From the NCBI RefSeq assembly GCF_004022215.1, contig NZ_SAUZ01000021.1, positions 1 through 64,000 of the forward strand: a DNA stretch of 64,000 bases, in the 5' to 3' direction. Source of the stretch: Paenirhodobacter populi. GTDB lineage: Bacteria > Pseudomonadota > Alphaproteobacteria > Rhodobacterales > Rhodobacteraceae. Position 1 is the first letter of the stretch. Each line of letters opens with the position of its first letter. Below are positions 17,177 to 41,789 of this stretch, piece after piece. Both the position numbers and the translations under genes were made by a program. A model generated the notes under the pieces. The model saw nothing but the letters and a program-made list of their open reading frames with translations. It did no database searches and was not told the DNA's origin.

Positions 17177-17973
17177 GTTGATTTCCTTTCGCTGATGACG
17201 AATCATCCGTCACTTTCAAAATTTAGGTGACTACTGAATCCAATATGCGGCAATTTAAAAATTCCCCGATGCAAATTTCTGCCCGGAAACGTGAGGGAAC
17301 AGGCCGAATATTAAGCTAATGCACAAGTGATACGCATGTATTCCGCCATCTCACCGGGGGCATGACCCGATGGAGCACCACCGCAACAGCAGCAATTTCG
17401 AAATGTTCCATTCAAGCGCCCAGAACATCGCCTCGCCGTGGCCGACCACGGCCCTCCCGGACAGAAGCCACCATGGCGGAACATCCGCCCCACACCCTGG
17501 CCCCACTCAATCCGGCTGTGTCGTCCACCTCACACCAAACAGGCCGAGCAGACAACGCACACCTATCACCCCCGCCCGCAGCGACCGCAAAGCCCGGAAA
17601 GCTCAATTATTGCTGACCAATGGCGACGTCTATCATTGGACAAGACTTCCCCCTCCCCATCATGCACCCCGCACATCGACGAAGATCATCGGGCTCGGGA
17701 TCAGCAGGGACTTCGCACAGCAGAAAGCGCCCCGCCCCGCCAAGCAACAGGCTATCGTCGGGACCAGGATCCACTTCGCGGCGCACCCGCGCCTCCCCCA
17801 CGGCCATGATCGATGAAAAGGGATGAGCTGCCCGCACACCGGGCATTCCGTCAGCAATTCAGATCAAATATTGAGCAAACACATCACAATTCACCACAAT
17901 ACGATCGTCCCTATAGATCTGGAATATTTATGATCTATGGATTCATGACGCATAATCATAGAAAGAGATCGAC
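17177..17973. other. Long divergent intergenic region (about 800 nt)
   Basis: This lies between amidohydrolase A (minus) and HyuA (plus). It is less GC-rich than its surroundings. Near amidohydrolase A an inverted repeat GTCAC-n13-GTGAC sits at 17209-17231. Overlapping open frames of 60-148 codons between 17311 and 17857 have no ribosome sites or recognisable domains, and I do not call them genes. The region may also hold an unannotated small RNA or a relic; nothing specific was recognised. Confidence 0.45.
17935..17961. promoter_or_regulatory. Inverted repeat operator candidate upstream of hyuA-like gene
   Basis: CTATG-GATT (17935-17943) and AATCATAG (17954-17961) form an imperfect dyad ending 12 nt before the ATG of the HyuA-like gene, overlapping where its leader and ribosome site should be. 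A bound regulator here would repress initiation. No partner regulator is adjacent. Confidence 0.4.
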
Positions 17974-20052
17974 ATGAAAATGATCGGCGTCGATGTCGGC
18001 GGGACGTTCACCGATTTCGTCTACAGCGATATGGACCGGGGCTCGCTCGCCATCCACAAGGTCTCGACCACACCGTCGGACCCATCCCGCGGGGTCATGC
18101 AAGGCATCGTGGAGCTGTGCGAAAGAAACGGGGTCGATCCCTCCGAGATCTCCTACGTCCTGCATGGCACCACCACCGCGACGAACGCCGTGCTTGAAGG
18201 CAAGGGCGCCACCTGCGGCATGATCACAAACGATGGGTTCCGCGACATCATCCACATCGGCCGCCATCAGCGCCCGGAGCATTACTCGATCCGTCAGGAC
18301 ATCCCCTGGCAGGCCCGCCCCCTCGTCAGGCGCCGCTTCCGCAAGACAGTGCCCGGTCGCATCGTGCCGCCTACCGGCGAGGAGCTGGTGCCCCTCGACG
18401 AGGAAGCCGTGCGCCGCGCAGCGCGTGAGCTGCATGCCGAAGGCGTCAATTCGGTCGCCATCTGCTTTCTCTTCTCCTTCCTCAACCCGGCGCATGAGAA
18501 TCGCGCGAAGGAGCTTGTTCAGGAAGAGATGCCCGAAGCGTTCGTCACCACCTCTTCCTTCATCTCGCCACAGTTCCGGGAATTCGAGCGTTTCACCACG
18601 GCCGGTCTTGCCGCGTTCATCGGCCCCAAGGTCGACCGCTACATTGCACATCTGGATTCCGCCCTGCGCGATCTGGGCATGACGGCCGAGTTGCGGATCA
18701 TGGCCTCGAACGGCGGCGTCGCCACACCAAAGATGGTGGTCGAGAAACCCGCCCTGACATTGCAGTCCGGACTGGCTGCGGGGGTGCTGGGCGGCGCATG
18801 GATCGGCGCTCAGGATGGCCGCGACAGGCTGATCACGCTCGATATCGGCGGAACGTCGGCCGATATCGGCATCATCGTCGATGGCCACGTGACCGAAACC
18901 GATGCCCGATCGACGTCGATTGCGGGCTTCCCGTTACTGATGCCGATGCTCGACATTCACACCATCGGTGCAGGCGGAGGCTCGATCGCCTGGCAGGACC
19001 GTGGCGGCGCCTTCCGCGTCGGCCCGCAGAGCGCCGGCGCCGAACCCGGGCCGGCCGCCTACGGCCGGGGGGGAACCCTGCCCACCGTGACAGATGCGAA
19101 TGTCGTGCTCGGACGGCTTGCCCCGCAGGATTTTCTCGGCGGCGAGATGGGCCTCGACGTCGCTGCCGCGCGACAGGTGATCGACGCGCTGGCCAGGCGT
19201 CTGGCCATGAGTTCGGAAGAGGCGGCCGAGGGCATACTGACCATCCTGAACGCCAACATGGCCAATGCGATCCGGTCGCGGACGGTGCAGAAGGGGATCG
19301 ATCCGCGTGGATTCGCGCTTGTCGCCATGGGCGGCGCGGGGCCTCTTCATGGGGCCGAAGTGGCGCGGATGCTCTCGATCCCCGAGATTCTGGTGCCGCC
19401 CTCTCCCGGCATTACCTCTGCAATGGGGCTGCTGACCACCGACCTGAAATATGATCTCGCGCGCACCCAGTTCCAGCTTTCGACCAGGGTCGACCTGGAT
19501 CGCATCAACGCGGACCTCGCCAGCATGGAGACGACCCTGATACGCCAGTTCGCCGAGGATCACATCCCCGAGGAGGCGATCGGCTTCAGCCGGATGGCGG
19601 ACATGCGCTATCAGGGACAGGGCTACGAACTGAACGTGCCAGTCCCCGCGGGCGTTCTCGATGCTGCGGCGCTGGACGTGCTCTGGGCTCATTTCCATTC
19701 CGCGCACGAGAGAGAATACGGCCACGCCTTCCCGGGCAACCCGATCGAGATCGTCAACCTGCGCAGCATCGCGCGGGCGGAACTGCCCAAGCTCGGCGCG
19801 CTTGCCGCAGCCGAAGGCGGCAGCCGCGCCGCCGCCTTCGAACGCACCGTCGAGACGGTCTTCCGCGTCGGCAGCGGGCTCGAGAGTTTCAAGACCTCGG
19901 TCTATCGCCGGGCCGCCTTGCCGGTGGGCGAGGATATCCCGGGCCCCGCCATCGTCACCCAGAAGGACAGCACCACCGTCGTGCCGCCCGGCGCCAGCTT
20001 CCGCCAGCTGCCCTCGGGCAGCCTGCTCATCACTTTGGGAGACCTGAAATGA
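17974..20052 (+). CDS. hyuA: Hydantoinase/oxoprolinase family protein, subunit A
   Basis: A 692-residue HyuA-type subunit. The N-terminal actin-like ATPase region starts with MIGVDVGGTFTDFVYSD and continues with HGTTTATNAVLEGKGA (hydantoinase A N-terminal domain, about 4-180). The main domain carries LDIGGTSADIG, GAGGGSIAW and AMGGAGPLHG. Family members couple ATP hydrolysis to opening a cyclic amide such as N-methylhydantoin or 5-oxoproline; related acetone carboxylases also occur. It overlaps subunit B by ATGA. Without biochemical data, hydantoin, methylhydantoin and oxoproline cannot be told apart. The absence of a glutamate-specific context and the many amidohydrolases nearby favour a ureide. 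Confidence 0.9.
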   Translation: MKMIGVDVGGTFTDFVYSDMDRGSLAIHKVSTTPSDPSRGVMQGIVELCERNGVDPSEISYVLHGTTTATNAVLEGKGATCGMITNDGFRDIIHIGRHQRPEHYSIRQDIPWQARPLVRRRFRKTVPGRIVPPTGEELVPLDEEAVRRAARELHAEGVNSVAICFLFSFLNPAHENRAKELVQEEMPEAFVTTSSFISPQFREFERFTTAGLAAFIGPKVDRYIAHLDSALRDLGMTAELRIMASNGGVATPKMVVEKPALTLQSGLAAGVLGGAWIGAQDGRDRLITLDIGGTSADIGIIVDGHVTETDARSTSIAGFPLLMPMLDIHTIGAGGGSIAWQDRGGAFRVGPQSAGAEPGPAAYGRGGTLPTVTDANVVLGRLAPQDFLGGEMGLDVAAARQVIDALARRLAMSSEEAAEGILTILNANMANAIRSRTVQKGIDPRGFALVAMGGAGPLHGAEVARMLSIPEILVPPSPGITSAMGLLTTDLKYDLARTQFQLSTRVDLDRINADLASMETTLIRQFAEDHIPEEAIGFSRMADMRYQGQGYELNVPVPAGVLDAAALDVLWAHFHSAHEREYGHAFPGNPIEIVNLRSIARAELPKLGALAAAEGGSRAAAFERTVETVFRVGSGLESFKTSVYRRAALPVGEDIPGPAIVTQKDSTTVVPPGASFRQLPSGSLLITLGDLK

Positions 20053-21803
20053 GCCAGCGCATCGATCCCGTCACCGCTTCGGTCATCCAGGGCGCGCTCG
20101 ACAACATCGCCACCGAGATGGGACACAAGCTGATGCGCATGTCCTATTCCTCGATCATCCGCGAATCCGAGGATTTCGGCGCGGCGCTGACCGACGAAAC
20201 CGGCCGCCAGCTGTGTGAATGCACCTTCTCGACACCGCTGCAGTCGGGCCCGATCCCCGGCTATATCCGCAACATCCTCAAGGTCACGGCCGAACGCGGT
20301 GATTCGCTGCGCGAAGGCGACGTCATCATGCACAATGATCCCTACGGCGGCGCCTCGCACGGGCCGGACGTTGCCTTCGTGATCCCTGTGTTCATGGATG
20401 GGCGGCTGGTCGGATTTTCCGCCACCACGGCGCACCATCTGGACATCGGCGCCCAGACCCCCGGCAGTTGCGGCATCGTCGAGGCAGTGGATACCTATTC
20501 CGAGGGGCTCCAGTTCAAGGCCATCAAGGTCTATGACGCAGGCCGTCGCAACGATGCGGTCTGGCATATTCTGAACGGCAACATACGTGCGCCGCGTCTG
20601 GTCGTGGGGGACATGGAGGCACAGATCAAGTCCGCCCGCATCGGCGCCGAGCGCTACAAGGCACTGATCGATCAATATGGCGAAGTGACTTTCCGGGCCG
20701 CCTGCGAAGATCTGATGGATTATTCCGAGCGGCTGATGCGCGATGCAATCGCGGCGCTGCCCGATGGCGATTACAGCGCAACGACGATGATCGACGGCTA
20801 TCTCGATGATCCGGATCCCGCGCGCCACCACCTGCCGATCTGCGCCACGGTCAGGATCCGGGGCGACAGCATGGTCGTCGATCTGACGGGCACGGCGAAG
20901 CAGGTCGACGACCGGCCGATCAACATGCCGTTCACCGGCACGACGGATTGCGCGGTCTGGCTGACGGTGCGCTCGATCCTGCTCGATTCCGTCGAGTTCG
21001 GCGCGATCCCGCAAAACGCCGGTCTCACCCGCGCGATCAAGATCGTGGCGCCCAGGGGATGCCTTGCCAACCCCACCTTCCCCGCGCCGGTGATCGCGCG
21101 GTTCTGCCCCGGCAACCAACTGGCCGATACAGTGATGAAGGCACTCTCGCCGATCGTGCCTGAAAAAGTATCGGCCGGGATCGGCAACTTGCGGATCGTC
21201 GCGCTTTCGGGGCTGCGGGACGAACAGCACTGGGTCCACATGGAAATCATGGAAGGGGCCTATGGCGGCCGCTTCGGCAAGGACGGCATGGATGCGGTCG
21301 ACACGCTCTATGCCAATACCCGCAACAACCCGATCGAGGACATCGAGAGCCATATCCCGGTGCGCTGCGACCGATACGAACTGCTCGACGAACGCTGCGC
21401 CCCCGGCAAGTGGCGCGGCGGCGTCGGTGCGGTGCGCGAATTCACCTTCCTCTCGGATGCCGGCTTCTCGGTCGAGGGAGAAGGGCACGACATCCGCCCC
21501 TGGGGCTTCGACGGCGGCGCCGAGGGGATCGCGGCGTCGATGACGCTCGCCCACAGGAATGGCACCACCGACGCCCTGCCTTCCAAGGTGCCATATTTCA
21601 AGGTCCGCGCGGGCGAGCGCCTGATCTGCGAGGGGCCTTGCGGCGGCGGCTATGGCAACCCGCATGAGCGCGCGCCCGAGGCGGTGCTTGAGGATGTGCT
21701 GGACGGGTTGCTGACACCCGAAATGGCGCTGGCGGATTATGGCGTGGTGATCCGCGACGGCACGGTGGATGCCGAAGCGACGCGACGCACCCGCGCGGCC
21801 TGA
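20049..21803 (+). CDS. hyuB: Hydantoinase/oxoprolinase family protein, subunit B
   Basis: A 584-residue hydantoinase B domain protein of normal length. Recognisable parts are the N-terminal IQGALDNIATEMGHKLMRMS and SIIRESEDFGAALTDETGR, then MHNDPYGGASHGPDV, and near the C-terminus ERLICEGPCGGGYGNPHER. It forms the A/B hydrolase with the preceding gene, with which it is translationally coupled (ATGA at 20049-20052). A hairpin follows the stop. No third subunit gene, as in acetone carboxylase, is present. Confidence 0.9.
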   Translation: MSQRIDPVTASVIQGALDNIATEMGHKLMRMSYSSIIRESEDFGAALTDETGRQLCECTFSTPLQSGPIPGYIRNILKVTAERGDSLREGDVIMHNDPYGGASHGPDVAFVIPVFMDGRLVGFSATTAHHLDIGAQTPGSCGIVEAVDTYSEGLQFKAIKVYDAGRRNDAVWHILNGNIRAPRLVVGDMEAQIKSARIGAERYKALIDQYGEVTFRAACEDLMDYSERLMRDAIAALPDGDYSATTMIDGYLDDPDPARHHLPICATVRIRGDSMVVDLTGTAKQVDDRPINMPFTGTTDCAVWLTVRSILLDSVEFGAIPQNAGLTRAIKIVAPRGCLANPTFPAPVIARFCPGNQLADTVMKALSPIVPEKVSAGIGNLRIVALSGLRDEQHWVHMEIMEGAYGGRFGKDGMDAVDTLYANTRNNPIEDIESHIPVRCDRYELLDERCAPGKWRGGVGAVREFTFLSDAGFSVEGEGHDIRPWGFDGGAEGIAASMTLAHRNGTTDALPSKVPYFKVRAGERLICEGPCGGGYGNPHERAPEAVLEDVLDGLLTPEMALADYGVVIRDGTVDAEATRRTRAA

Positions 21804-25202: not shown

Positions 25203-25233
25203 CTTCTCCCGGCCTTGCAGCAGAATGGGAAAG

Positions 25234-25278: not shown

Positions 25279-26442
25279 TCAGGACAGCATCATCTTGTTG
25301 AACTTCTCGATGACTTCGGGGCGGTTGTCGGCCCACCACTGATATTGATACGGAACCTGCAGGGCGAGGTTTTCGGGTGCGGTGGGCAGCTTGGCCAGCA
25401 CATCGGCCGGGATATACTTCGCGGAGTCGGCGTTGGTGAAACCATAGGGCAACAGAATCGAGTAGCGCGCCTGCGCGATGGCCGAGGACGAGAAGGCCGC
25501 GAACTTCTGGGCATTCGACAGGTTCGGAGCGCCTTTCGGGATCAGCCAGGCATTCTTGACCAGCATTCCTCCGTCCCAGACCAGCTCCACAGGCTTGCCT
25601 TCCTTTTGCGCCGCATCGATACGGCCGTTCCACGCCGTGACCAGCGGGGCCTCGTTATCGAGAAGCAGCTGCATGTGTTGGGCGCCCGTCTCCCACCACT
25701 TCACCACGCTCGGCCTGATTTCGTAGAACTTGGCGATGGCCCGGTCGATGTCGATCGGATAGGCGCTTGCGGGATCGACGCCGTCGGCGATCAGTGCACC
25801 GACCAGTTCAGGGACATTGCCCTTGGTGGCGATCGGCATGGAGCGTCCGCCCCTGAACTTCTCGGTATCCCAGAAATCCTTGAAACCTTTCGGTCCTTCC
25901 GGGAACACATCGGTGCGATAGGCGATCATCTGCGAGTAAGGCACAATGTCCAGCCCGTGGCTCGCGCGGGAGTCTTCGGTGACACCCGGCTCGACCAGCG
26001 AATAGTCGATGGGTTCCAGATAGTCGCCCTGACGCAACAGCTCGATCATCGTGCCGCGGCCGATCTGGCATACGTCCCAGCCGACAGTGCCGGTATCCAC
26101 CATCGCCTTGAGCTTTGCCGGATCCGGGCCGATCGCCTCGATCACCTTGATGCCGCACAGTTTTTCGAACGGTTCGAACCATGCCTTGCGCTGCATTTCG
26201 GTGCCGATGCCGCCCCAGGTGACCACCACGACCTCGCCCGTTCCCTTCCATGCGTCGGGAATGGTGTCGAATTCGGGCAACGCGATATCCTGCGCGCGCG
26301 CGGCATGCGGGAACATCGGACCGGCCATCGCCAATGCGGCGGCGCCGCCGAACAGCTTGAGGAAATCCCGCCGCGCCGTCGGCGGCACCATCACCGACTC
26401 CCGCAGTCGGCGGATACGGTCGGCGTCATGCTTGTCTGTCAT
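25279..26442 (-). CDS. Tat-exported PotD-type periplasmic binding protein (polyamine transporter family)
   Basis: A 387-residue extracellular binding protein. The N-terminus has a twin-arginine signal (TARRDFLKLFGGAAALAMAG, about 23-42) ending near AARAQ, so it is exported folded. The mature start VVVVTWGGIGTEMQRKAWFEPF and the C-terminal VPYQYQWWADNRPEVIEKFN fit the spermidine/putrescine (PotD) family. ATG 26442 is chosen for AGGAG 6 nt upstream; the longer open frame runs through the promoter. No permease is adjacent. The matching permeases and ATPase are probably those at 31902-34671, whose promoter shares the GGCATATCGC element. Confidence 0.88.
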   Translation of the reverse strand: MTDKHDADRIRRLRESVMVPPTARRDFLKLFGGAAALAMAGPMFPHAARAQDIALPEFDTIPDAWKGTGEVVVVTWGGIGTEMQRKAWFEPFEKLCGIKVIEAIGPDPAKLKAMVDTGTVGWDVCQIGRGTMIELLRQGDYLEPIDYSLVEPGVTEDSRASHGLDIVPYSQMIAYRTDVFPEGPKGFKDFWDTEKFRGGRSMPIATKGNVPELVGALIADGVDPASAYPIDIDRAIAKFYEIRPSVVKWWETGAQHMQLLLDNEAPLVTAWNGRIDAAQKEGKPVELVWDGGMLVKNAWLIPKGAPNLSNAQKFAAFSSSAIAQARYSILLPYGFTNADSAKYIPADVLAKLPTAPENLALQVPYQYQWWADNRPEVIEKFNKMMLS

Positions 26443-29759: not shown

Positions 29760-29761
29760 GC

Positions 29762-30463: not shown

Positions 30464-31905
30464 CAGTATTCCTCGAGTTCACAAGGGGAGATCTGGTCGA
30501 TGCGCCGGCCGGCCCAGTCGCCGGGACCGATACCATCCCAGACCCGCCGCGCCGCGGCCTGAAGGCCGGTGCGGGCCGTCTTTTCGTCCACACGCAGCAA
30601 TGCACCGTCGCGCATCAACCAGTTGCCGTCGACCATGACGTGATGCAGATCCTCGGATTCAGCATAGTAGACGAGGTTGCGCAGCGGATCCCGCATCGGG
30701 GCGAGAGAGAATCCCGTGGTGTCCCACAAGAGCAGGTCCGCCCTGGCGCCGGGGCTGATCCGGCCCAGATCCTCGCGGCCAAGCACACGGGCCGGGGCGA
30801 GTGTGGCGGCATCGAATACCTCCCGCGCCGAGGCGACGCGGGCATCGCGATCGGCGACCTTGGACAGGATCGCGGCCGCGCGCATCGACTTCAGCATGGA
30901 TTGCGGGGCGGTATCGGTGCCGATGCACATGTTCACCCCCGCATCACGGTAACGGGCAAAGGATTCCATGATGATGCCACGCCGCGCGAATACCCAGGCG
31001 CAATGCGCGACCGAGGCGCCCGTCCGCGCAAGGATGTCGATGTCGCCCCGGCCGGGATAGTCGATCCAGGAATTGCCCGAGGTGAAGATGCCGTGACCGA
31101 GGATCATCCCCGGCCACAGGAAATCCTGCGTTTCCAGCCATTCGACGGGGGACATGCCCTCGCGCTGGAGCATTTCCTGAAACTCGAAGACCGCCTCGGC
31201 GGCATGCAGTGTCACGGGCAGGTTCCGCTCGGCCGCGGCGGCGCGGGTGCGTGCCAGCAGCCCCGGCGTGACCATGGCCACCTGCATCGGCGTCAGCAGA
31301 CCGCGGACACGGCTGCAGCCCCGCGCCTCGAGCCGGTCGACAAAGGCGAGCGCCGCCTCGAACCCCTCCTGCCCGTCGTCGGATTTCCAGTCGTAGCTCA
31401 TCCGGCGGCCATCGCGGGTGCGCCATCTGGCGGAACCGTATCCTTCGCCGACATAGGCGCGCAGCCCCGCCCTGTCGACGGCTTCGGCGGTATAGTCGCC
31501 CAGCCAGCCGATCTCGAAAACGGTGGTCGTGCCCGAGCGCGTCAGTTCGGCCAGGGAAAAATCCACCGCCGCCTCCTGCGCGGCATGGTCCATCGCCGCA
31601 CCCATTGCCGGAAGCAGTTCGGGAAGGCCCGAAAAGTAGAACCCCGGCCGACCCACATCCTCGACATAGGACCTGTCATAAGGAGCGGACGTGATATGGG
31701 CGTGCATGTCGATCAGGCCCGGCGTCAGCAGCGCGTCCGGCAGGTCGATACGCTCGTCGAACGTGCCGGTCACCGCGGCTCCGGTCACCGCGACGATAAT
31801 GTCCCCCTCGATGATGACGGAGCCATTGCGCAGCAACCTGTGCGCTCCGTCGCGATAGGCAATGACCTGCCCCGCGGTGACAAGGATGCGATGCGACGAT
31901 GTCAT
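30463..31905 (-). CDS. Amidohydrolase C (ATZ/TRZ-like metal-dependent hydrolase)
   Basis: A 480-residue amidohydrolase closest to A (shared YVEDVG, RGIIMESFAR and TDTAPQS segments). The HAH pair is at 68-70 (TPGLIDMHAHITS), followed by TLHAAEAVFEFQE, GHGIFTSG and GTDTAPQS. Unlike A and B it keeps HxxE (HAAE), the Glu used by triazine hydrolases and related deaminases. ATG 31905 follows GGAGATCC and overlaps the permease stop as ATGA. The 147 nt of open frame upstream belong to the permease gene region. Position within the polyamine-type transporter operon indicates that its substrate enters through that transporter. Confidence 0.83.
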   Translation of the reverse strand: MTSSHRILVTAGQVIAYRDGAHRLLRNGSVIIEGDIIVAVTGAAVTGTFDERIDLPDALLTPGLIDMHAHITSAPYDRSYVEDVGRPGFYFSGLPELLPAMGAAMDHAAQEAAVDFSLAELTRSGTTTVFEIGWLGDYTAEAVDRAGLRAYVGEGYGSARWRTRDGRRMSYDWKSDDGQEGFEAALAFVDRLEARGCSRVRGLLTPMQVAMVTPGLLARTRAAAAERNLPVTLHAAEAVFEFQEMLQREGMSPVEWLETQDFLWPGMILGHGIFTSGNSWIDYPGRGDIDILARTGASVAHCAWVFARRGIIMESFARYRDAGVNMCIGTDTAPQSMLKSMRAAAILSKVADRDARVASAREVFDAATLAPARVLGREDLGRISPGARADLLLWDTTGFSLAPMRDPLRNLVYYAESEDLHHVMVDGNWLMRDGALLRVDEKTARTGLQAAARRVWDGIGPGDWAGRRIDQISPCELEEY

Positions 31906-32738
31906 TGCGGATCTCCACTTGCCGCCCCGCTGCGGCGTCGGGCTCTTCTTTGCAGCAGCGCCGAGCTGAGGAACAGCGCGACAGAGATCGCGATGGCCAG
32001 CACCGAAACCGCGGCGATCGACGGATCGAGCGAGGATTTCATGCTCTCCCACATGCGCAACGGCAATGTCACCTGCGTCGGCCCCGCGATGAACATGGCC
32101 ACTATCAGCTCATCGAAGGACGAGATGAAGGCAAAAAGCGCACCGGCCGCGATACCCGGCCGGATGATCGGCAGGGTGACGTGGAAGAAGGTGGCAAACC
32201 GCCCTGCCCCGAGGTTCGCCGCCGCCATTTCCAGCCGCCGGTCAAATCCGTGCAGCGCCGCCGAGACATTCACGACGACGAAGGGCACCGCGAGCGTGGT
32301 ATGCGCCACCGCGATGGCCAGCGGCGAGCCAACGAACTTCAGTCTGGCGTAGAAGAAGTAGATCGCAATCGCCACGATCACGCCGGGCACGATCAGGGGC
32401 GACATGATGAATGCCAGCAGCAGCCTCTGCCCGATGAACCGTCCCCGCACCAGTCCGAGCGCGCCGAGGGTTCCCAGCACCGTCGAGACCACCGTCACCA
32501 CCACCGCGATCCAGATGCTTAGCCAGGCCGAGTTGAGCCAGTCGGCGCGCGAAAAGACCCTTGCGTACCACTGCGTGGAAAAGCCGGGCGGCGGAAAGCT
32601 GAGAAAGCTGTCCGCCGTGAACGATACCGGCACGATGATCAGCACCGGCAGGATCAGGAACGCCGCGACCAGCAAGGCCACGGCTCCCAGAACCGCCTGG
32701 GTCAGCGGACCCGAGACCCGGATGTTGCGCCGGTTCAT
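31902..32738 (-). CDS. Polyamine-type ABC transporter permease (PotC-like)
   Basis: A 278-residue permease with six hydrophobic segments. It carries the PotC-type contact loop LEMAAANLGAGRFATFFHVT preceding LPIIRPGIAAGALFAF, and ISSFDELIVAMFIAG. ATG 32738 follows GGAGGAGCG and overlaps the PotB-like stop (ATGA). It pairs with the next permease. Its cytoplasmic loop should dock the ATPase encoded at 33562-34671. Confidence 0.92.
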   Translation of the reverse strand: MNRRNIRVSGPLTQAVLGAVALLVAAFLILPVLIIVPVSFTADSFLSFPPPGFSTQWYARVFSRADWLNSAWLSIWIAVVVTVVSTVLGTLGALGLVRGRFIGQRLLLAFIMSPLIVPGVIVAIAIYFFYARLKFVGSPLAIAVAHTTLAVPFVVVNVSAALHGFDRRLEMAAANLGAGRFATFFHVTLPIIRPGIAAGALFAFISSFDELIVAMFIAGPTQVTLPLRMWESMKSSLDPSIAAVSVLAIAISVALFLSSALLQRRARRRSGAASGDPQ

Positions 32739-33565
32739 CGCGCTCCTCCGAAGATGCGCTCCAGGCTGACGACGCGCCCGAACAGCGCCAGCGTCACCAG
32801 CGTGACGATCAGCAACGCGGTCGCGATCGCCGAGGCCACGTCCCATCGGTAGAGGTCGACCTCACCCGCGATGAGCATCGAAACGGTCATGTCCGAGGGC
32901 CCGCCCACCAGAGCCGGCGTGATATAGAACCCAAGGCTGAGCACGAAGACGAGGACCGATCCGGCAAGAACGCCGGGCATCGACAGCGGCACGATCACAT
33001 GGCGAAAGACCGCACCGGGCCCGGCGCCAAGATTCTCGGCTGCGGCGACCAGCCTGCCGTCAATCGCCTTCAGTGACGACAGGATGGGCAAGACCATGAA
33101 TGGCAGCAGCACATGCACCATGCCGACATAGACCGCGAAGGTCGTGTTCAGCATCCGCACCGGCGCATCGATGACGCCTGTCCATCGCAAAAAGCCGTTC
33201 ACCACCCCGTTCTGACCCAGAAGCACCATCCAGGCATAGGACCGGATCAGGATCGACGTCCAGAATGGCACCAGCACGAGGGCCAGCAGAACCATCGCCG
33301 TTCTTTCGCCCGTGGTGGCGATGAAATAGGCCAGAGGATAGGCCAGGGCGAGCGTCAGCACCGTGACGATCACCGCGATCCGGGCCGTCAGCCAGAAGAC
33401 CTTCAGCGTAACCTCGCTGGAGAATGCGTCGACGAAAGGCCTGAAAGACCAGTCCGCCCCCGTGCTGCGCAGCAGCATCTGCACCACCGGCAGCAGGTAG
33501 AACACCAGCAGGAACAGCGCCAAGGGCAGGACCAGAAAAGCCGGATCGCGCAAAAGCCGATTCAT
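32735..33565 (-). CDS. Polyamine-type ABC transporter permease (PotB-like)
   Basis: A 276-residue permease beginning MNRLLRDPAFLVLPLALFL. It has the PotB marks VPFWTSILIRSYAWMVLLG, NGVVNGFLRWTGV and the contact loop LVAAAENLGAGPGAVFRHVI. The start at 33565 overlaps the ATPase stop (ATGA); the upstream 48 nt of open frame lie in the ATPase gene. Together with the PotC-like protein it forms the membrane channel. Confidence 0.92.
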   Translation of the reverse strand: MNRLLRDPAFLVLPLALFLLVFYLLPVVQMLLRSTGADWSFRPFVDAFSSEVTLKVFWLTARIAVIVTVLTLALAYPLAYFIATTGERTAMVLLALVLVPFWTSILIRSYAWMVLLGQNGVVNGFLRWTGVIDAPVRMLNTTFAVYVGMVHVLLPFMVLPILSSLKAIDGRLVAAAENLGAGPGAVFRHVIVPLSMPGVLAGSVLVFVLSLGFYITPALVGGPSDMTVSMLIAGEVDLYRWDVASAIATALLIVTLVTLALFGRVVSLERIFGGAR

Positions 33566-34671
33566 TGCAGCGCCGTGCCTTCGGAAAATGCGCGAATCTG
33601 CGCCGCCGGCCAATCCACCGTCACGCGCGCACCGGGCGGGACGGGCTCGGCACCGGTCGACTGGGCCTTGACGATCAGCATACCCCCGTCCGCAAGGCGC
33701 AGGTCATAACGGCGATGATCGCCGACGTAGGTAACGTCCGCGACCGTAGCGCCGCCTGCGGGATCGGGGTGGAAAGCAACATGTTCGGGTCGCACCGACA
33801 GTCTCACCTGCCCACCGGCAGGCTGTCGGGCGACGGGCAGCACGATCCGGTCGCCGCCGATCTCCAGCTGCAGTGTCCTCTCCGCAGAGAATGCGACAAC
33901 GGCATCAAGCATATTCGATTCACCCAGAAATCCCGCAACGAATTCATCCTGCGGCCGACTGTAAAGTGCCTCGGGCGCGTCGACCTGGGCGATGCGTCCG
34001 TCGCGCATCACGCAGATGCGGTCGGACATGGTCATCGCCTCGTCCTGATCGTGGGTGACATAGACGACGGTGATCCCGAGGTCGCGGTGGATGCGGCGAA
34101 TCTCCGATTGCAGATGGCTGCGCAGGTATTTGTCCAGCGCCGAAAGCGGCTCGTCCATCAACAGGACCGGCGGCTGGAACACGATGGCGCGGGCAAGCGC
34201 CACGCGCTGCTGCTGTCCGCCCGAGAGCTGCCCGGGGAAGCGCCGGCCGAACCGTTCGAGCCCGACGATTTCAAGCACCCGCCCGACCTCGCGCATCTGC
34301 TCGGCCTTCGACAGGCCACGCATGCGCAACGGGAAGGCGATGTTCTGCTCCACCGTCATGTGGGGAAACAGGGCGTAGCTCTGGAACACCATGCCGACAT
34401 TGCGTCGTGCCGGCGGCACGGCGGTAATGTCCTGATGACCGATATAGATGCGCCCGTCCGTCGGCTCCTCGAACCCCGCGAGCATCATCAACGTGGTTGT
34501 CTTTCCTGATCCCGACGGCCCCAGGAAGGACATGAACTCGCCCTCCTTCACATCGAGCACAAGCGGATGCACCGCGACGAAGCTGCCAAAGGACTTGCTG
34601 ACGCCGGCGAAGCGCACCGGGCTGCCTGCCCTGGACCGGGTCGTGCCGATATCACCTGCGCCCATCTTCAT
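33562..34671 (-). CDS. Polyamine-type ABC transporter ATP-binding protein (PotA-like)
   Basis: A 369-residue ATPase of the PotA/CysA class. Walker A is GPSGSGKTT, then QSYALFPHMT, the signature LSGGQQQRVALARAI, Walker B VLLMDEPLSALD and the switch VTHD. Residues about 285-365 form a TOBE domain that often has a regulatory role. It is the first gene of the long minus-strand operon 34671-26742. The first ATG (34671) is called, though ATG 34665 has a better spaced GGA. The upstream region carries three GGCATATCGC-like words. Confidence 0.92.
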   Translation of the reverse strand: MKMGAGDIGTTRSRAGSPVRFAGVSKSFGSFVAVHPLVLDVKEGEFMSFLGPSGSGKTTTLMMLAGFEEPTDGRIYIGHQDITAVPPARRNVGMVFQSYALFPHMTVEQNIAFPLRMRGLSKAEQMREVGRVLEIVGLERFGRRFPGQLSGGQQQRVALARAIVFQPPVLLMDEPLSALDKYLRSHLQSEIRRIHRDLGITVVYVTHDQDEAMTMSDRICVMRDGRIAQVDAPEALYSRPQDEFVAGFLGESNMLDAVVAFSAERTLQLEIGGDRIVLPVARQPAGGQVRLSVRPEHVAFHPDPAGGATVADVTYVGDHRRYDLRLADGGMLIVKAQSTGAEPVPPGARVTVDWPAAQIRAFSEGTALQ

Positions 34672-34800: not shown

Positions 34801-35027
34801 CATCGGCCAATGATGACACCAGCAGCCTTATTGCCATGCCTGCGTGGTGAAAGAATGGCAACGACAGCACACGCGGAATCGCTCTGCCCGGCACGCTGGC
34901 GCGAGGCTACCGAAGCGGCTTCAACTCCAGCGCCGTCCCACGCCCGAGCCCGGATCCCCTCAACGATATCGGGATCGAAGAGAATTCGGCGGGCGTGGCT
35001 GCCCCCGTCCCTGCTCTGCACCGGACC

Positions 35028-35348
35028 GGTGTGTCGCGCGTCGCGTGAAAGACCACCTTCGAGGGAATCGCCGCTGTCAGCCTCGGCGACCCGTCCTATC
35101 GGAGTCAGCGGGACGCCCCCTGCGATGCGCGGTGTCGATCGCAGTCGAGGCGATCTCGCAAAATCCCGCCATCGCATCGCGGCGGATGTCCATGGGATGG
35201 CACCGGCATGATTTTCGACCCCATGCAGCGTCGCCGGGTAGGGGCGGATGCCGGTTGCCACCGCCACCGGAAAACCCGCCTGTTCGAGGACCGGACCCTG
35301 CTCGATGTGCGGTTCGATGAAGGCGCCGAAGTCGTCGTATTCAGATGA
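35028..35348 (-). pseudogene. Decayed M20-family N-carbamoyl amino acid hydrolase / allantoate-type amidase
   Basis: Three stretches in three different minus-strand frames reconstruct the middle of an M20 zinc amidase. From 35348: SSEYDDFGAFIEPHIEQG, then VATGIRPYPATLHGVE and HAGAIP. After a one-base loss near 35195 the frame continues MDIRRDAMAGFCEIAST. After a further shift it reads AAIPSKVVFHATRDT near 35078-35030. These correspond to the family landmarks HIEQGP, HAGxxPMDxRRDA and VIPxxVxF. The metal-binding N-terminal third and the C-terminal SGAGHDA block are not found. It is a broken relic of a carbamoylase-like gene in a hydantoin-related region. The rest of 34801-35677 holds no intact gene. 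Confidence 0.78.
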
Positions 35349-35677
35349 CGCGCCGCCTTGACCAGGCTGGCCAGTAAAAGGTTTCCATCCGGCGCAGATC
35401 CACGTTTCTCATTCCTTGAACAACCGCATTGTGTGCCGCATCGGCACGAAGATATTCGACGGACGCGGCCCTGATATGCGGTTACCCCGGCAGGTGGCGG
35501 AACTCCTCCGGAACTCTGTCCCTTGTGCTCCCGTGCGGTTAGGTTCTAGGCTTGAACCGGAATGGATGCGTGCGGGGCCACCCTTGGGATCGCATCGGTC
35601 GGCTGGAGGTGCCGGGTGCAGGAAGAACGGCGTTCCGCGCAGGCGGGCGACTTGTATGTCGGGCCGGAGGGCCGCGG

Positions 35678-36664
35678 ATGGTGACGGCACCGGAAGCCTA
35701 TTACGAAGTCGTGCGGCGGGTGCTTGAGGACAATATCCGCACGGGTGCTCTGCCGGGGGGAACGCGTCTTTACGTGGCGGCCCTGGCCGATCGTCTTGGG
35801 GTCAGCAGATCACCGGTAAAACGTGCCCTCGAGCTTCTCGAGGAAGACGGGCTGTTGCGCCGCAACGAGGCGCAGGGTTGGCTGGTCGGCGATGAACCTG
35901 CCTCCGATGTGCGGCCCAACCTGCACCTTTTCGAACTCGAGCTGCCTGACAGCGGCTCGGCGACGCCGGTCAAGCCGGGATGGGAACGTATTCTGCAGAC
36001 CGTCGCGGACGAGGTGGTCGACTGTATCCCTTTCGGGATCTGGAAGATTTCGGAGACCGAACTTTGCAGCCATTTCGGTGTCAGCCGCACTGTCACGCGC
36101 GAGGTTCTGACCCGCCTGCACGAACGCGGCCTCGTCACCAAGAACCGCGCCTCGCACTGGATCGCGGGTCCGTTGTCGGCACAGATGCTGGGTGAGTTGC
36201 ACGACATGCGCCGCCTTCTGGAGCCGCTTGCCCTGCGCCGCGCGGCGCCGCATCTTGGGCGGATGACGCTGATCGAGATGCGCGAGCGGGTCGAAGCGGC
36301 GCTTGCCGCGCCGCATCAACCCGCGATAGAGGATTTCGACCGCATCGAGGACGACCTGCACCGGACCTGCGTCGCACCGCAGCCGAACCAGCGGCTGGCG
36401 GCGGCCCTGCCCGAATTGCGTCTGTCGCTGGTGGTGAACCGGCAGTTCTCGCTTCACGTGGCGCGGCATCACGAAAGCGCGCTGCTGCTGGAACACAGGC
36501 TGGTCCTTGACCACCTGATCGCAGGCGATGCGGAGGGCGCGGCGACGGCGTTGCGCTTTCATCTTGATGCGGATCATGACCGCGCCCGTGCCAGGCTCAA
36601 GGTGCTGTCGGTCTTCGGCGAACCGGATGCCAAGGTCGTGCCCTATCTGATGCGTATCGTCTGA
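35678..36664 (+). CDS. GntR-family regulator with two winged-helix domains plus FCD domain
   Basis: A 328-residue protein with the same layout as the regulator at 6402-7433. Winged helix 1 is about 4-72 (LADRLGVSRSPVKRALELLE). Winged helix 2 is about 102-165 (LCSHFGVSRTVTREVLTRLH). An FCD-like helical domain follows from about 168 (LGELHDMRRLLEPLALRRAA). ATG 35678 is chosen for GGAGG at 35666-35670; the open frame begins 126 nt earlier without a ribosome site or homologous sequence. It precedes the binding-protein homologue by 9 nt, so the two should be made together. It probably regulates the hydantoinase genes nearby. Confidence 0.84.
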   Translation: MVTAPEAYYEVVRRVLEDNIRTGALPGGTRLYVAALADRLGVSRSPVKRALELLEEDGLLRRNEAQGWLVGDEPASDVRPNLHLFELELPDSGSATPVKPGWERILQTVADEVVDCIPFGIWKISETELCSHFGVSRTVTREVLTRLHERGLVTKNRASHWIAGPLSAQMLGELHDMRRLLEPLALRRAAPHLGRMTLIEMRERVEAALAAPHQPAIEDFDRIEDDLHRTCVAPQPNQRLAAALPELRLSLVVNRQFSLHVARHHESALLLEHRLVLDHLIAGDAEGAATALRFHLDADHDRARARLKVLSVFGEPDAKVVPYLMRIV

Positions 36665-36673
36665 GGAGAAACC

Positions 36674-37825
36674 ATGACGGAACCACTCCGGCTTCGGGTC
36701 ATTTCGCGCGGAGAATTCGTCCCCCCGCAGATCCGCGCGCGGCTGGCACGCGATCTCGATTTCGACATCGAGTTCATCGTGCTCGACAGCACCCGCAGCC
36801 TGCAGCAGGTGATGACCGAACCCGAGAGCTTTGATGTCTATCACCAATGGCACACTTCGGACCTGATCTGGACCGCGCGTTGCATCCAGGGGATCGACCT
36901 GCGCCGGATCGACACCGGCAATCTGCTGAAGGCCGCGGCCCGGGCACGCTCGGGCGTGACGCATACCGTCTTTGACCGGCTGTTCGTGCAGGATGACGGC
37001 AGCCTCGGTCCAGAACCGGGTGATACGATCGCCGTCCTGCCGGCATTGCACGGCGTGGATGGCTTCGTCTGGCGGCCCTCGCACGCCCCCGCCCTGCGGC
37101 CGGGCGAACGTGAAAGCTGGGGCTGGCTGCTGGACCCCCGATGGGCTGGCCACGTCGGGCTGATCGCCGATCCCGTCCTCGGCATCATCGAGGCGGCGCT
37201 TGCCACCGAGGCGCAGCTTGGACAACCTTTCGGGGACATCGGCAACCTGACCATCGACGAGGTGGATACCATTGCCGATTACCTGATCCACAAGAAAAAG
37301 ATCGGCCACTTCAAGGACACCTGGACCTCGCAGGCGGAGGCGGTGCGGCTGATGCGACGCGGTTCCGTCACCATCCAGAGCCTGTTCTCGCCGGCGGTCT
37401 CGCAGCTTCGGGCGGAGGGGATGCAGCTTGCCGTCGCCGACCCGGCAGAGGGCAGCCGCGGCTGGCATTCCGACCTGTGCATCTCAGCCGCCGCCGAGGG
37501 CGAGCGGGTCGACGCCGCTTACGCCTATCTGAACTGGTGGCAGAACGGCTGGGCGGGCGCCTGCCTGTCGCGGCAGGGCTATTATTTCATCTTTCCGGAA
37601 CTTGCTCGGCCGCATCTGAGTGCTGCCGAATGGGATTACTGGTATGATGGGCAGCCGGCTTCCGAGCCGCTTTGCGGCCCCAGTGGCGAGGTCACGATCC
37701 GCGAAGGACATCGCCGCGAAGGTGGCTCGTATCGGGCACGCATGGCCAGCGCGCGGGTATGGAACACATTCATGGATGAACACACGCATGTCACCCGGCG
37801 CTGGCAGGAGTTCCTGTCCGCCTGA
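36674..37825 (+). CDS. PotD-type binding-protein homologue without signal peptide (predicted cytoplasmic)
   Basis: A 383-residue protein with the periplasmic binding-protein fold of the spermidine/putrescine class (FDVYHQWHTSDLIWTARCIQ, WGWLLDPRWAGHVGLIADP, DAAYAYLNWWQNGWAGACLS). The N-terminus MTEPLRLRVISRGEFVPPQI is polar and starts directly at the first beta strand, with no Sec or Tat signal. GAGGAGAAACC precedes the ATG and the upstream gene ends 9 nt before, so a missed signal peptide is unlikely. No permease follows. It may sense a ligand in the cytoplasm, perhaps with the double-winged-helix regulator made from the same mRNA. An enzyme or moonlighting role cannot be excluded. Confidence 0.78.
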   Translation: MTEPLRLRVISRGEFVPPQIRARLARDLDFDIEFIVLDSTRSLQQVMTEPESFDVYHQWHTSDLIWTARCIQGIDLRRIDTGNLLKAAARARSGVTHTVFDRLFVQDDGSLGPEPGDTIAVLPALHGVDGFVWRPSHAPALRPGERESWGWLLDPRWAGHVGLIADPVLGIIEAALATEAQLGQPFGDIGNLTIDEVDTIADYLIHKKKIGHFKDTWTSQAEAVRLMRRGSVTIQSLFSPAVSQLRAEGMQLAVADPAEGSRGWHSDLCISAAAEGERVDAAYAYLNWWQNGWAGACLSRQGYYFIFPELARPHLSAAEWDYWYDGQPASEPLCGPSGEVTIREGHRREGGSYRARMASARVWNTFMDEHTHVTRRWQEFLSA

Positions 37826-37930: not shown

Positions 37931-38665
37931 TCAACGCGGTGCAAATCGCCCGAATTCACCCTCATACGCCTTGGCCAGCGGCGCGGCATAGCCCTGCCGC
38001 TTGCTCGTGCCAAGTCCGAGTCCGGCGAGCGCCTCGACCAACCGCACACCGGCGGATACGCCATCGATCGCCGGCGCGCCGATCTCGGCGCTGACGCGCG
38101 CCATCAGATCGGACATGCCTCCACAGCCCAGCAAAACGCAATCCGCGTGATCCTCGGAGATCGCGCACCGGCATTCGGCGATGATCCGCGCCTGCGCATC
38201 CGAGCCTTCGATCTCCAGATCCAGAACAGGAATATCGGTCATCCGGATCGAACGGCACCGACGCTCCATCCCATAGGCATGAACGAGATGCTCCATCGTC
38301 ATGCGCGAACGTTCGAGCATGGATACGATCGAAAACCCGGTGCCGATCAGGCTCGCCGCATGCATCGCCGCCTCGGCGATACCTACCACCGGACCGCGGG
38401 CAACCTCGCGCGCGGCGGCCAGTCCGGGATCGCCGAAACAGGCGATCACATAGCCGTCGCACCCCTCGGCCTCGCCGCGCAGCACCTCATCGATGACACC
38501 AACCGCGGCGAAAGCCTCGTCGTAGCTGCCTTCGATGGAAACCGGCCCCATCCGTGGCGACACGGCCAGGATCTCGACCCCGGGCGAGGCGGCCCTGCGG
38601 GCAGCCTCGCCGATCTTTTCGGTCATCGACCAGGTGGTGTTCGGATTGATGACCTTGATCCTCAT
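37931..38665 (-). CDS. hyuE: Hydantoin racemase (Asp/Glu racemase superfamily)
   Basis: A 244-residue racemase starting MRIKVINPNTTWSMTE, the standard HyuE N-terminus. The two catalytic cysteines are C76 (VIACFGDPG) and C181 (CVLLGCGGMSD), the positions I recall for characterised Pseudomonas hydantoin racemases. It interconverts L- and D-5-monosubstituted hydantoins so that a D-specific hydantoinase can use the racemate. It is 13 nt downstream of the D-carbamoylase gene on the same strand. A longer open frame to 39208 is an artefact of the overlapping carbamoylase frame. Allantoin racemase is the alternative, disfavoured by the neighbours. Confidence 0.85.
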   Translation of the reverse strand: MRIKVINPNTTWSMTEKIGEAARRAASPGVEILAVSPRMGPVSIEGSYDEAFAAVGVIDEVLRGEAEGCDGYVIACFGDPGLAAAREVARGPVVGIAEAAMHAASLIGTGFSIVSMLERSRMTMEHLVHAYGMERRCRSIRMTDIPVLDLEIEGSDAQARIIAECRCAISEDHADCVLLGCGGMSDLMARVSAEIGAPAIDGVSAGVRLVEALAGLGLGTSKRQGYAAPLAKAYEGEFGRFAPR

Positions 38666-38678
38666 GTCGCGCCCCGCG

Positions 38679-39614
38679 TCACGACCTTTCCGACCCCGGA
38701 TCCATCTCGGCGATGATGCCATAGTGCTGCGGCTGGCGATGCATGGCGAAATTGAAGATGTGGTCGCGCAGATCCTGGCAGGCGTCCAGATCGCAGACAT
38801 AGGTGAGAACTTCATCCTCCAGCGTGGAAGACAGCGCGACGATCTCGCCCGTCGGCGCGACGATGCAGGAATTCGCCAGCAGCATCGAGCCTTCCTCCAT
38901 GCCCGCCTTCGCCGCCGCCGCACCCCAGACACCGTTCTGGTAGCAACCCGCCTGCATCGACAACAGGTGATGGAAGGAACTGAGATGGTCGTGCTGTGGG
39001 ACCGGCGGGGTATGGGTCGGCGTGTTGAACCCGCCGCAGACGATTTCCGCCCCCCGCAGCCCCATGACGCGCCAGGTCTCGGGCCAGCGGCGGTCGTTGC
39101 AGATGAACATGCCCACCCTGGCGTCATCCACCTGATAGACCGGAAAGCCCAGATTGCCCGGCTCGAAATAGCGTTTCTCAAGGTGTTGCCAGGGACGATA
39201 CGCCTCATATTCCTTATGGCCGGGCAGATGGACCTTGCGATACTTGCCGATGATCCTGCCCGTGCTGTCCACGGCGATCGAGGTGTTGTAGTGATGGGTC
39301 ACCCCATTCTCGGCGATCAGTTCGGCATAGCCCAGATTGAACCCGACCCCCAGCTTTGCCGCCAGATCGAACAGCGGCCGGGTCGCCGCATTCGGCATTT
39401 CGGTCTCGAACCAGATGTCGATCTCGGCCTGATCCTCGAAATACCAGCGCGGGAAGAATGTCGTAAGCGCGAGTTCGGGAAACACGATAAAGTGCGCGCC
39501 CCGCCCGGCCGCATCCTTCATCATCTCCATCAGCCGCACGACGACCTGCTCGCGCGTTTCGGCGCGCGCGATCGGGCCCAACTGGGCGACGGCGAGGTTG
39601 ATCTTGCGTGTCAT
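38679..39614 (-). CDS. hyuC: N-carbamoyl-D-amino acid amidohydrolase
   Basis: A 311-residue nitrilase-superfamily enzyme with the triad at the classical D-carbamoylase positions: E47 in FPELAL, K127 in KYRKVHLPG and C172 in MFICNDRRWPE. The family fingerprint FFPRWYFED and the segment GFNTPTHTPPVPQHDHL also match Agrobacterium-type D-carbamoylases (about 304 residues). It converts N-carbamoyl-D-amino acids to D-amino acids, CO2 and ammonia in the cytoplasm. ATG 39614 has AAAGGACC at good spacing. It is divergent from the D-hydantoinase gene and co-directional with the racemase, completing the three-step route. The symbol follows Agrobacterium usage, in which hyuC is the D-carbamoylase. Confidence 0.92.
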   Translation of the reverse strand: MTRKINLAVAQLGPIARAETREQVVVRLMEMMKDAAGRGAHFIVFPELALTTFFPRWYFEDQAEIDIWFETEMPNAATRPLFDLAAKLGVGFNLGYAELIAENGVTHHYNTSIAVDSTGRIIGKYRKVHLPGHKEYEAYRPWQHLEKRYFEPGNLGFPVYQVDDARVGMFICNDRRWPETWRVMGLRGAEIVCGGFNTPTHTPPVPQHDHLSSFHHLLSMQAGCYQNGVWGAAAAKAGMEEGSMLLANSCIVAPTGEIVALSSTLEDEVLTYVCDLDACQDLRDHIFNFAMHRQPQHYGIIAEMDPGSERS

Positions 39615-40403: not shown

Positions 40404-41789
40404 ATGGATCTGGTCATACGCAACGGCACGGTCGTCACTGCCGGGGGAACCTATGCGGCGGATATCGGCATTGCCGAAGGCAAGATCGCGCAGATCGGCG
40501 GGACCTTCGACGCCGGCCTTCCCGCCCTTGACGCAAGCGGCCTCTATGTCATGCCCGGCGGTGTCGATGTGCATACCCATCTGGACGCCGCCGACGCGGG
40601 TGTCCATTCGGCCGACGATTTCCGCACGGGCACGATCGCCGCAGCCTGCGGAGGCACCACCACCGTGGTCGATTTCTGCGCCCAGGCCCATGGCCAGAGC
40701 CTGTCCGATGCCATCGCCTTCTGGGACAGCAAGGCCGAAGGCGCCGCAGCGGTGGACTACGGCTACCACATCATCGTCACCGACATGAACGAGTCGGTCT
40801 TCGAGGAGCTCGCCGGCTTACCCGAACGCGGCATCACCTCGTTCAAGCTGTTCATGGCCTATCGCGGCACCAACATGATCGATGACGTGACGCTGCTGCG
40901 CGCCCTCGATCAGGCCCGGCGCAGCGACGCGCTGGTGATGGTCCATGCCGAGAATGGCGACGCCGCCGACTATCTGCGCGACAGGTTCGCGGCCGAGGGC
41001 AAGACGACGCCCTACTATCATGCGCTCAGCCGTCCGCCCCGGGTCGAAGCCGAGGCCACCGCCCGCGCGCTGGCGCTGGCCGAAATCGTCGATACGCCGA
41101 TCTACATCGTTCATCTGACCTGCGGTGAGGCGCTGGACGAACTGATCCGCGCCAAAAGGCGGGGCGTGCGCGCCTATGCGGAAACCTGTACCCAGTATCT
41201 CTATCTGACCCGGGAAGATCTCGCCCGTCCCGACTTCGAGGGCGCCAAGTTCGTTTTCACCCCACCCGCCCGCACCGAGGCCGACCACCGGATCCTGTGG
41301 GATGCGCTTGCCAATCGCACGCTCGACGCGATTTCTTCCGACCATTGCTCATGGAGCTTCAAGGACCACAAGAGCCGCGGGCGCGATGATTTCCGCAAGA
41401 TCCCGAATGGCGCTCCCGGCGTCGAGGAACGTCTTATGATGATCTATCAGGGCGTGAACGAAGGCCGTATCACCCTGTGCGATTTCGTCGATCTGGTGGC
41501 CACCCGTCCCGCACGGCTTTTCGGCATGTTCCCGCGCAAGGGCACGATCTCTGTGGGTGCCGATGCGGATCTGGTGCTCTGGGACCCGGAAGCGGAATGC
41601 GTCATCGCACAGCGGGACATGCACAATGCGATGGATTATTCTTCCTATGAAGGGCGCAAGGTAAAGGGAATGCCCCGCTCAGTCCTGCTGCGCGGCAAGC
41701 TCATTGTCGAAGACCGCAACTACATCGGCACGCCCGGCGAAGGGACTTTTCTTCGGCGTGACCGCTTCGCCGCCCGCAACCGGGACTGA
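40404..41789 (+). CDS. hyuH: D-hydantoinase / dihydropyrimidinase
   Basis: A 461-residue cyclic amidohydrolase. Metal ligands are H57 and H59 (GGVDVHTHLD), the carboxylated K148 (TSFKLFMAYRG), H181 (VHAEN) and H237 (YIVHLTCGEA), with the catalytic D313 (SSDHCSW). This is the complete dihydropyrimidinase set. It opens 5-substituted hydantoins or dihydropyrimidines to N-carbamoyl amino acids. AGAGGA precedes the ATG. The adjacent D-carbamoylase and hydantoin racemase point to D-amino acid formation from hydantoins, with pyrimidine catabolism the alternative if a beta-ureidopropionase is absent elsewhere. The symbol follows usage for D-hydantoinases. Confidence 0.92.
   Translation: MDLVIRNGTVVTAGGTYAADIGIAEGKIAQIGGTFDAGLPALDASGLYVMPGGVDVHTHLDAADAGVHSADDFRTGTIAAACGGTTTVVDFCAQAHGQSLSDAIAFWDSKAEGAAAVDYGYHIIVTDMNESVFEELAGLPERGITSFKLFMAYRGTNMIDDVTLLRALDQARRSDALVMVHAENGDAADYLRDRFAAEGKTTPYYHALSRPPRVEAEATARALALAEIVDTPIYIVHLTCGEALDELIRAKRRGVRAYAETCTQYLYLTREDLARPDFEGAKFVFTPPARTEADHRILWDALANRTLDAISSDHCSWSFKDHKSRGRDDFRKIPNGAPGVEERLMMIYQGVNEGRITLCDFVDLVATRPARLFGMFPRKGTISVGADADLVLWDPEAECVIAQRDMHNAMDYSSYEGRKVKGMPRSVLLRGKLIVEDRNYIGTPGEGTFLRRDRFAARNRD

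Follow-up and report, generated by a model that had tools for sequence, protein, structure and literature searches.

Within a 64,000-nucleotide stretch of DNA from Paenirhodobacter populi (contig NZ_SAUZ01000021.1, positions 1 to 64,000; hereafter the window), two neighbouring genes on the + strand encode a 328-aa GntR/FCD regulator with two winged helices (GntR2, protein P0001; 35678..36664) and a PotD-fold solute-binding protein (SBP) that lacks an export signal and is presumed to read a ligand in the cytoplasm (P0002; 36674..37825). Loss of the export signal together with the steady company of GntR2 suggests that the two probably form a sensor controlling ring-nitrogen breakdown genes, and we take a cytoplasmic sensor made up of these two proteins and serving ring catabolism of the hydantoin/lactam type to be the best explanation of the pair, with a probability of about 0.62. 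The observations that carry this reading are the cytoplasmic location of the SBP as judged from sequence, the origin of the signal-less proteins in a single clade, their occurrence together with GntR2, a single natural fusion that joins the two proteins, and their association with HyuA and HyuB.

The gene layout is as the first-pass annotation of the window had described it, with 9 nt between the two genes and GGAG directly 5′ of the P0002 ATG region. The operon neighbour of P0002 is GntR2, and the operon holds no permease with its ATPase; scans of the pair region for sigma-70 promoters, terminators and Rfam families returned nothing of note. P0002 was assigned from Pfam, its structural model, Foldseek and its start codon. 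The ATG lies three codons from an upstream in-frame stop, in an open frame of 386 aa, and the model (pLDDT 92.9) places the first strand at residues 6-11, so the earlier statement that the protein begins at its first beta strand without an export signal is borne out. A hidden signal peptide was rejected because there is no room for one upstream and none in the signal-less relatives; likewise, a conserved upstream start giving a signal peptide, which had been named beforehand as evidence that would overturn the idea, was seen nowhere in the signal-less clade. The fold is that of PotD/PotF: in Foldseek searches these are the best matches (top PDB entry 7xjn, E 4e-17; top matches 13-16% identical), and 24 of the best 25 have TMt values of 0.73-0.81. 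By sequence the Pfam SBP_bac_8 match reaches 23.4 bits, under the gathering score of 27, and there is no NCBIfam match at 0.01. Hydrophobicity alone does not discriminate signal-less from exported-kind proteins (best 15-residue means up to 1.26 in the former vs 0.47-2.65 in the latter), and our signal calls therefore rest on motif, start codons and available room taken together. A loose twin-arginine pattern occurs upstream in 11 of the 41 signal-less rows measured, mostly within sequence shared with the upstream gene. Judged from its sequence, P0002 is cytoplasmic.

Relatives were collected by searching 84,980 species, each represented by a single genome, with peptide patterns from P0002, which gave 61 loci and, being a scan by peptide patterns, captures close relatives only. 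In all 22 loci in which the SBP is at least 47% identical to P0002, a homologue of GntR2 (43-76% identical) adjoins it. In 21 of them the regulator gene is directly upstream on the same strand, at gaps of -4 to +44 nt by our gene calls, and these are the 21 loci that define the orthologues of P0001 at 43-76% identity. In L024, from a Hyphomicrobiales metagenome-assembled genome (MAG), the two proteins are fused, and a single 745-aa open reading frame (ORF; 1797-4034) contains two GntR stretches, the FCD domain and the SBP. From the recurrence in 22/22 other loci at this identity, we conclude that the association of the pair is beyond chance. Nine more scan loci (six Pseudomonas-type, two Marinobacterium, one Rhizobiaceae) have a signal-less SBP directly after a CobW GTPase gene. 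In another 21 loci, termed group C, a twin-arginine-like motif precedes the first strand of the SBP. Scans of the 21 proteins encoded downstream placed a histidine-kinase ATPase domain in 19, all but those of L028 and L038; that these relatives already stand beside sensor kinases was counted for the sensor reading. In a further nine loci the SBP lies upstream of PotB/PotC-type genes, and a Tat-like (twin-arginine translocation) motif is present in 7/7 of those with the N terminus covered.

The same picture was obtained from two broader samples. In a family sample of 295 genomes, 80 (own genome included) contain an SBP match at E 1e-40 or better, and nine besides the window have a match of at least 37% identity over at least 360 residues. 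Each of the nine is signal-less by its N terminus and shares its contig with a homologue of GntR2. The pair is adjacent in four, in the order GntR2-SBP in L118, SBP-GntR2 in L125 and L126 and tail-to-tail in L123, while in L119-L122 and L124 GntR2 is 9-10 kb off, at the opposite end of a transporter cluster. The gene order varies yet the pair stays, which we also counted for the sensor reading. A possible counterexample, G042 (a 39% partial match), turned out to be an exported-kind SBP encoded next to PotA/PotB-type genes, in a genome without a GntR2 match. In a class sample of 385 genomes, a match of at least this quality (E 1e-72) was obtained in ten others; 9/10 have Tat-like signals and no GntR2 in their short locus flanks, and the tenth, G400, is signal-less and tail-to-tail with GntR2.

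Altogether there are 42 signal-less SBPs (22 and nine from the scan, nine from the family sample, G400 and the window), and a GntR2 homologue was found for 42/42. It is adjacent or fused in 28 (the 22 scan loci, the window, L118, L123, L125, L126 and G400), ~7-8 kb away in six, 9-10 kb away in five and elsewhere in the genome in three; because the GntR2 profile was built from the 22 loci and the window, those match by construction, which does not apply to the other 19. The genomes of L027, L067 and L050, with GntR2 outside the locus flanks, each gave one strong match (E 1e-87 to 1e-93). GntR2 is cut by contig ends in L010 and L032 and is full-length in L008 and L022 once the start is moved. 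Among exported-kind SBPs, GntR2 was found in 0/32 locus flanks (21 and nine scan loci, L127 and L128) and in 0/9 whole genomes (six genomes at 1e-20, plus G042, G199 and G066), the nine having been chosen without a double-winged-helix GntR known beforehand; one whole-genome check covered 11 loci (5 signal-less, 6 exported-kind) and another covered six genomes. A GntR2 match is also absent from genomes G158 and G159, each with a partial SBP match at a contig edge. The exported (Tat-type) loci hold permeases or sensor kinases in the place of GntR2. Thus the comparison of genomes that the first-pass annotation had called for shows the regulator to be the constant companion of the signal-less SBP, and orthologues routinely found with permeases and not with the regulator did not appear.

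Two sets of neighbours recur among these loci. The kinase-adjacent exported-kind SBPs (L026, L029, L033, L034, L036, L037, L040-L045, L047-L049, L051, L053-L055) come from gammaproteobacteria, Nitrosomonas, Magnetococcales and a Desulfobulbaceae MAG and make up a putative exported sensor branch; at L053 (8001-9156) the length of the SBP match is not a multiple of three, a possible frameshift. The CobW-SBP tandem is found in L030, L031, L032, L035, L039, L046, L027, L067, L050, L119-L122 and L124, mostly preceded by an orphan ORF of ~90-115 aa that gave no Pfam match in three tested, and CobW and the SBP may be a second functional pair.

The signal-less SBPs have one origin. In a tree of 87 sequences, which left out the partial matches PotDwin, L063 and L066, one branch with support 98/91 parts the 42 signal-less from the 45 exported-kind rows; the SBP alignment A1 held 50 sequences, P0002 and 49 of the 61 scan loci. 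As read from this tree and the N termini, the signal-less SBP goes back to a single event, in which a protein of a PotD-type family lost its Tat export signal. In 13 signal-less clusters (L008, L009, L014, L052, L118-L126) a second SBP relative, 29-33% identical to P0002, stands by the transporter genes; seven of these siblings (L008, L014, L052, L119, L120, L122, L123) show a Tat-like signal, and in the other six the called start falls inside or after a Tat-like signal. In G400 an exported sibling lies at a distance of 6 kb. In the window genome, the two paralogues of the family are on other contigs, both with Tat-like signals and beside ABC transporter genes. Because an exported relative stands by the transporter in 13 clusters, the cytoplasmic copy is probably derived from a duplication of the transporter's own SBP with loss of the export signal, and this is the simplest history.

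The regulator was assigned from Pfam, an AlphaFold model and its orthologues. Pfam gives PF00392 (GntR) at E 8.7e-22, in two stretches, and PF07729 (FCD) at E 5e-14; the model, built with 24 sequences, has pLDDT 86.7 and pTM 0.68. The first winged helix spans residues 9-70 (35702..35887, + strand; 8-70 in the model), the second approximately residues 102-163 (35981..36166, + strand; second Pfam GntR stretch and model) and the FCD domain residues 173-297 (36194..36568, + strand), with FCD helices at 168-312 and a C-terminal strand at 324-327 in the model. P0001 has the N-terminal GntR winged helix and the FCD domain with conserved putative metal ligands that define the GntR/FCD subfamily, and it departs from the subfamily's single DNA-binding domain per chain by having two. 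Within the FCD domain E224, H228, H273 and H295, which we take to be the expected metal ligands, are invariant in 24/24 rows of alignment A2. The same order of two GntR stretches and FCD is found by Pfam in P0003 (6402..7433, - strand), as the first-pass annotation had noted; this second regulator is 31-33% identical to P0001 and, by Pfam and alignment, has no SBP partner and no LKVLSVF-type tail. Such a tail, RLKVLSVF..PYLMRI in P0001 (residues 306-328; 36593..36661, + strand), follows the FCD domain in SBP-partnered regulators. The common motif RLKVLSVF..P..PYL.R, written after inspecting sequences, fits 37/38 partnered GntR2s (the single miss being cut by a contig end), 4/4 further ones (six were tested, two of them fuller copies of L030 and L046) and 0/15 double-winged-helix GntRs unlinked to a signal-less SBP, P0003 included. 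This conservation makes the tail perhaps a candidate docking element for the SBP.

What the pair might sense is suggested by the genes that accompany it. HyuB and HyuA follow the pair convergently in 20/22 loci, and the window has its own copies of both (17974..20052, + strand, hydantoinase/oxoprolinase A subunit HyuA; 20049..21803, + strand, hydantoinase B/oxoprolinase subunit HyuB), assigned by homology; the Pseudodonghicola proteins encoded next to the pair are 87% identical to them. The closest solved sequence to HyuA and HyuB is an N-methylhydantoinase (PDB 7hk5; E 8e-196 and 1.3e-142). The transporter near the pair varies by genome, being Pot-type, Dpp-type or with a Peripla_BP_4 protein (types assigned from homology with genes of the window and, in one case, a Pfam check), which argues that the SBP is not tied to one transporter. 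Upstream of hyuA, an ATGGA-N7-TCCAT dyad with at most two mismatches lies 37-80 bp before the gene in 10/18 loci, including the window, where the candidate operator (17937..17953) has two mismatches and lies 37 bp before the hyuA ATG; an eleventh upstream region contains a nested dyad, ACTATG-N4-CATAGT. The dyad was found by inspecting dyads, several of the loci are close kin, and 332 kb of sequence from these loci contain 137 occurrences of ATGGA-N7-TCCAT when two mismatches are allowed. We guess that GntR2 may use the hyuA dyad, proposing it as the user because it is the regulator that stays in the cluster; a search for an operator upstream of gntR2 gave nothing above control. In L068 (Devosia aurantiaca) hyuA is split into two ORFs in the gene calls and is possibly broken or an assembly error.

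In the mechanism that we propose, the cytoplasmic SBP would close around a small-molecule ligand. The likeliest candidate, on the substrate side of HyuA/HyuB, would be a ring compound of the hydantoin/lactam type or the product of its opening. The ligand-bound SBP would then dock on GntR2, perhaps through the conserved C-terminal tail, and docking would change the hold of GntR2 on the hyu and transporter promoters, at operators such as the hyuA dyad, to induce or repress them; the FCD domain may sense a second signal, e.g., a metal or an acid. More tentatively, at somewhat less than even odds, Tat-signal loss would have moved a duplicated transporter SBP into the cytoplasm to report imported substrate to GntR2, making a separate class of sensor in which importer and sensor would read the same ligand through sister proteins on both sides of the membrane.

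Alternative roles for P0002 were weighed against the sensor. It could be a cytoplasmic substrate-capturing or chaperone protein for HyuAB, PxpBC-type carboxylases, amidohydrolases or the CobW GTPase, to which it would hand over the ring compound or a metal-bound form, its link to GntR2 arising merely because GntR2 regulates that pathway. This would suit the closeness of HyuB-HyuA in 20/22 loci, the CobW gene directly before the SBP in 14 loci and the YcsF, biotin and carboxyltransferase genes before the SBP in L125 (by homology clusters also L123 and L126). We consider a carrier unlikely, however, since the enzyme sets differ among clusters while GntR2 stays, the fusion partner in L024 is GntR2 and not an enzyme, and the window's own clade shows a CobW homologue in L025 only (flanks up to 8 kb).

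That the protein belongs to neighbouring PotABC-type genes as an ordinary ABC transporter SBP, with a missed signal or another export route, is suggested by its PotD-like fold, by the divergent PotABC-type genes ~1 kb away and by paralogues with Tat-like signals that stand by permeases. This already disfavoured reading is highly improbable given that the window offers no room for a signal, the protein sits in a signal-less clade of 42, a separate exported-kind relative accompanies the transporter in L008, L009, L014, L052 and L118-L126, and the transporter type near the pair changes. A further alternative is that GntR2 senses a metal or acid through its FCD domain while the SBP acts as a co-regulator without ligand; the invariance of the putative metal ligands in 24 rows fits this, and the residues that all SBP groups have kept may play a structural part. 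Against it, P0002 keeps a confident binding-protein fold (PotD/PotF), and its aromatic and acidic residues are shared with exported relatives, as expected of a putative ligand site, so that we give this co-regulator little credence.

Several results weigh against the sensor itself. The pair is non-adjacent in 14/42 cases, in which the SBP follows a CobW GTPase (identified by homology in all 14 and checked by Pfam in four: L027, L030, L050, L120), and there the SBP may have another partner. The 15 double-winged-helix GntRs examined outside the pair are unlinked to a signal-less SBP, and four of them, all without the tail, come from genomes that have an exported-kind SBP elsewhere (G083, G203, G589 and G649), which argues that the double-winged-helix layout itself does not need a signal-less SBP. 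P0001 has its own FCD ligand domain with the putative metal ligands intact and may be able to act without a partner. The correlation between GntR2 and SBP distances (r 0.954, n=34, with GntR2 limited to the 34 of 38 proteins whose called gene exceeds 300 aa; partial 0.57 given HyuA distances, n=16) was counted for the sensor reading, although it largely reflects shared descent. In addition, G216 has a 52% GntR2 fragment with no SBP match at 1e-30 (a draft genome, ORF broken), the operator dyad is absent or unclear in 7/18 loci, the L024 fusion is known from one MAG contig, the window cluster is without an exported sibling of the family, the tail motif was framed after the fact, and permeases adjoin the pair in the window and are often near it in other loci. 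Of the original proposal, a two-protein sensory unit with a captured SBP, we retain the core, which is favoured by the fusion, the single signal loss, the exported siblings and the constant GntR2, while the nearby permeases and the 14/42 non-adjacent cases count against it.

The part of that proposal that fails is the claim that the pair stands without permeases, which we rejected. Divergent from the pair and ~1 kb upstream of it (34671 to 31902) are a PotA-like ABC ATPase (33562..34671, - strand; above the cutoff of NCBIfam TIGR01187 potA), a PotB/PotH-like permease (32735..33577, - strand; BPD_transp_1, below the cutoffs of the PotH/PotB models) and a PotC-like permease (31902..32741, - strand; BPD_transp_1, PotC model below cutoff). 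Their candidate exported partner is a PotD-type SBP with a Tat-like signal at its N terminus (ARRDFLK...; 25279..26442, - strand; SBP_bac_8 E 8.8e-31). Between potA and gntR2 lies a decayed M20-family amidase fragment (35016..35351, - strand; tblastn 40.6%, E 1.5e-14 to the L008 M20 protein), and the cluster of the nearest relative contains an intact M20-family amidase (L008, 13350-14591). The window is dense in ring-opening nitrogen catabolism genes from 15743 to 41789, with amidohydrolases at 15743-17206, 23547-25253, 28293-29765 and 30463-31905, an Asp/Glu/hydantoin racemase at 37931-38665, a CN-hydrolase at 38679-39614 and a dihydropyrimidinase at 40404-41789. In L125 (10444-14710, - strand), genes for LamB/YcsF, a biotin carrier, a biotin carboxylase and two carboxyltransferase-domain proteins precede SBP-GntR2; this set is like the 5-oxoprolinase PxpABC and by homology clusters is found also in L123 and L126.

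If the two proteins work together, the capture of an SBP by a regulator could be traced stepwise, from exported sibling to signal-less partner to natural fusion. If true, this would also give an annotation rule, by which signal-less PotD-type proteins beside double-winged-helix GntRs are sensors and not transporter parts, and simple binding assays with a soluble protein could then be used to test for the ligand of uncharacterised HyuAB/lactam-ring clusters.

Among known systems, P0001 shares the winged helix, FCD fold and conserved putative metal ligands of the FCD (FadR) subfamily, e.g., TM0439, McbR and PmiR, and differs by an extra second winged helix before FCD; the PDB matches listed are chains of ~200-280 residues and thus too short for both winged helices. 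Binding-protein-like domains also occur in cytoplasmic regulators such as Btr (AraC with a binding-protein domain), LysR and LacI, where the domain is fused and the families are others. Our literature search, for which subscription papers were mostly beyond reach, found no description of a double-winged-helix FCD regulator, nor of a cytoplasmic PotD-type protein that serves a GntR/FCD regulator as a separate partner. The first-pass annotation's statement that no example is described thus holds for this pair in the literature searched, but not for the kind, which is known as one polypeptide: in SgrR/DsvR a helix-turn-helix (HTH) domain and an SBP_bac_5 domain share one chain (PMC13060122). SgrR/DsvR is alike in attaching a solute-binding domain to a DNA-binding domain and differs in having one polypeptide, another HTH and SBP_bac_5, whereas here there are two genes, an SBP_bac_8-like protein and a GntR-FCD regulator with two winged helices. 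The L024 fusion is a one-chain analogue of the SgrR type with another type of SBP. SBP domains fused to DNA-binding domains are thus already known. In Escherichia coli the spermidine-PotD complex is reported to inhibit potABCD transcription (PMC4951125); there an SBP modulates transcription but is the transporter's own, whereas here a signal-less clade has its own regulator. Finally, in pairs of an SBP and a sensor kinase, of which GltB with GtrS-GltR is a described periplasmic case (PMC7927077), the SBP is likewise the sensing part, and 19/21 group C relatives of P0002 precede a histidine kinase; such pairs read a signal outside, across the membrane, whereas here both partners are presumed to be cytoplasmic.

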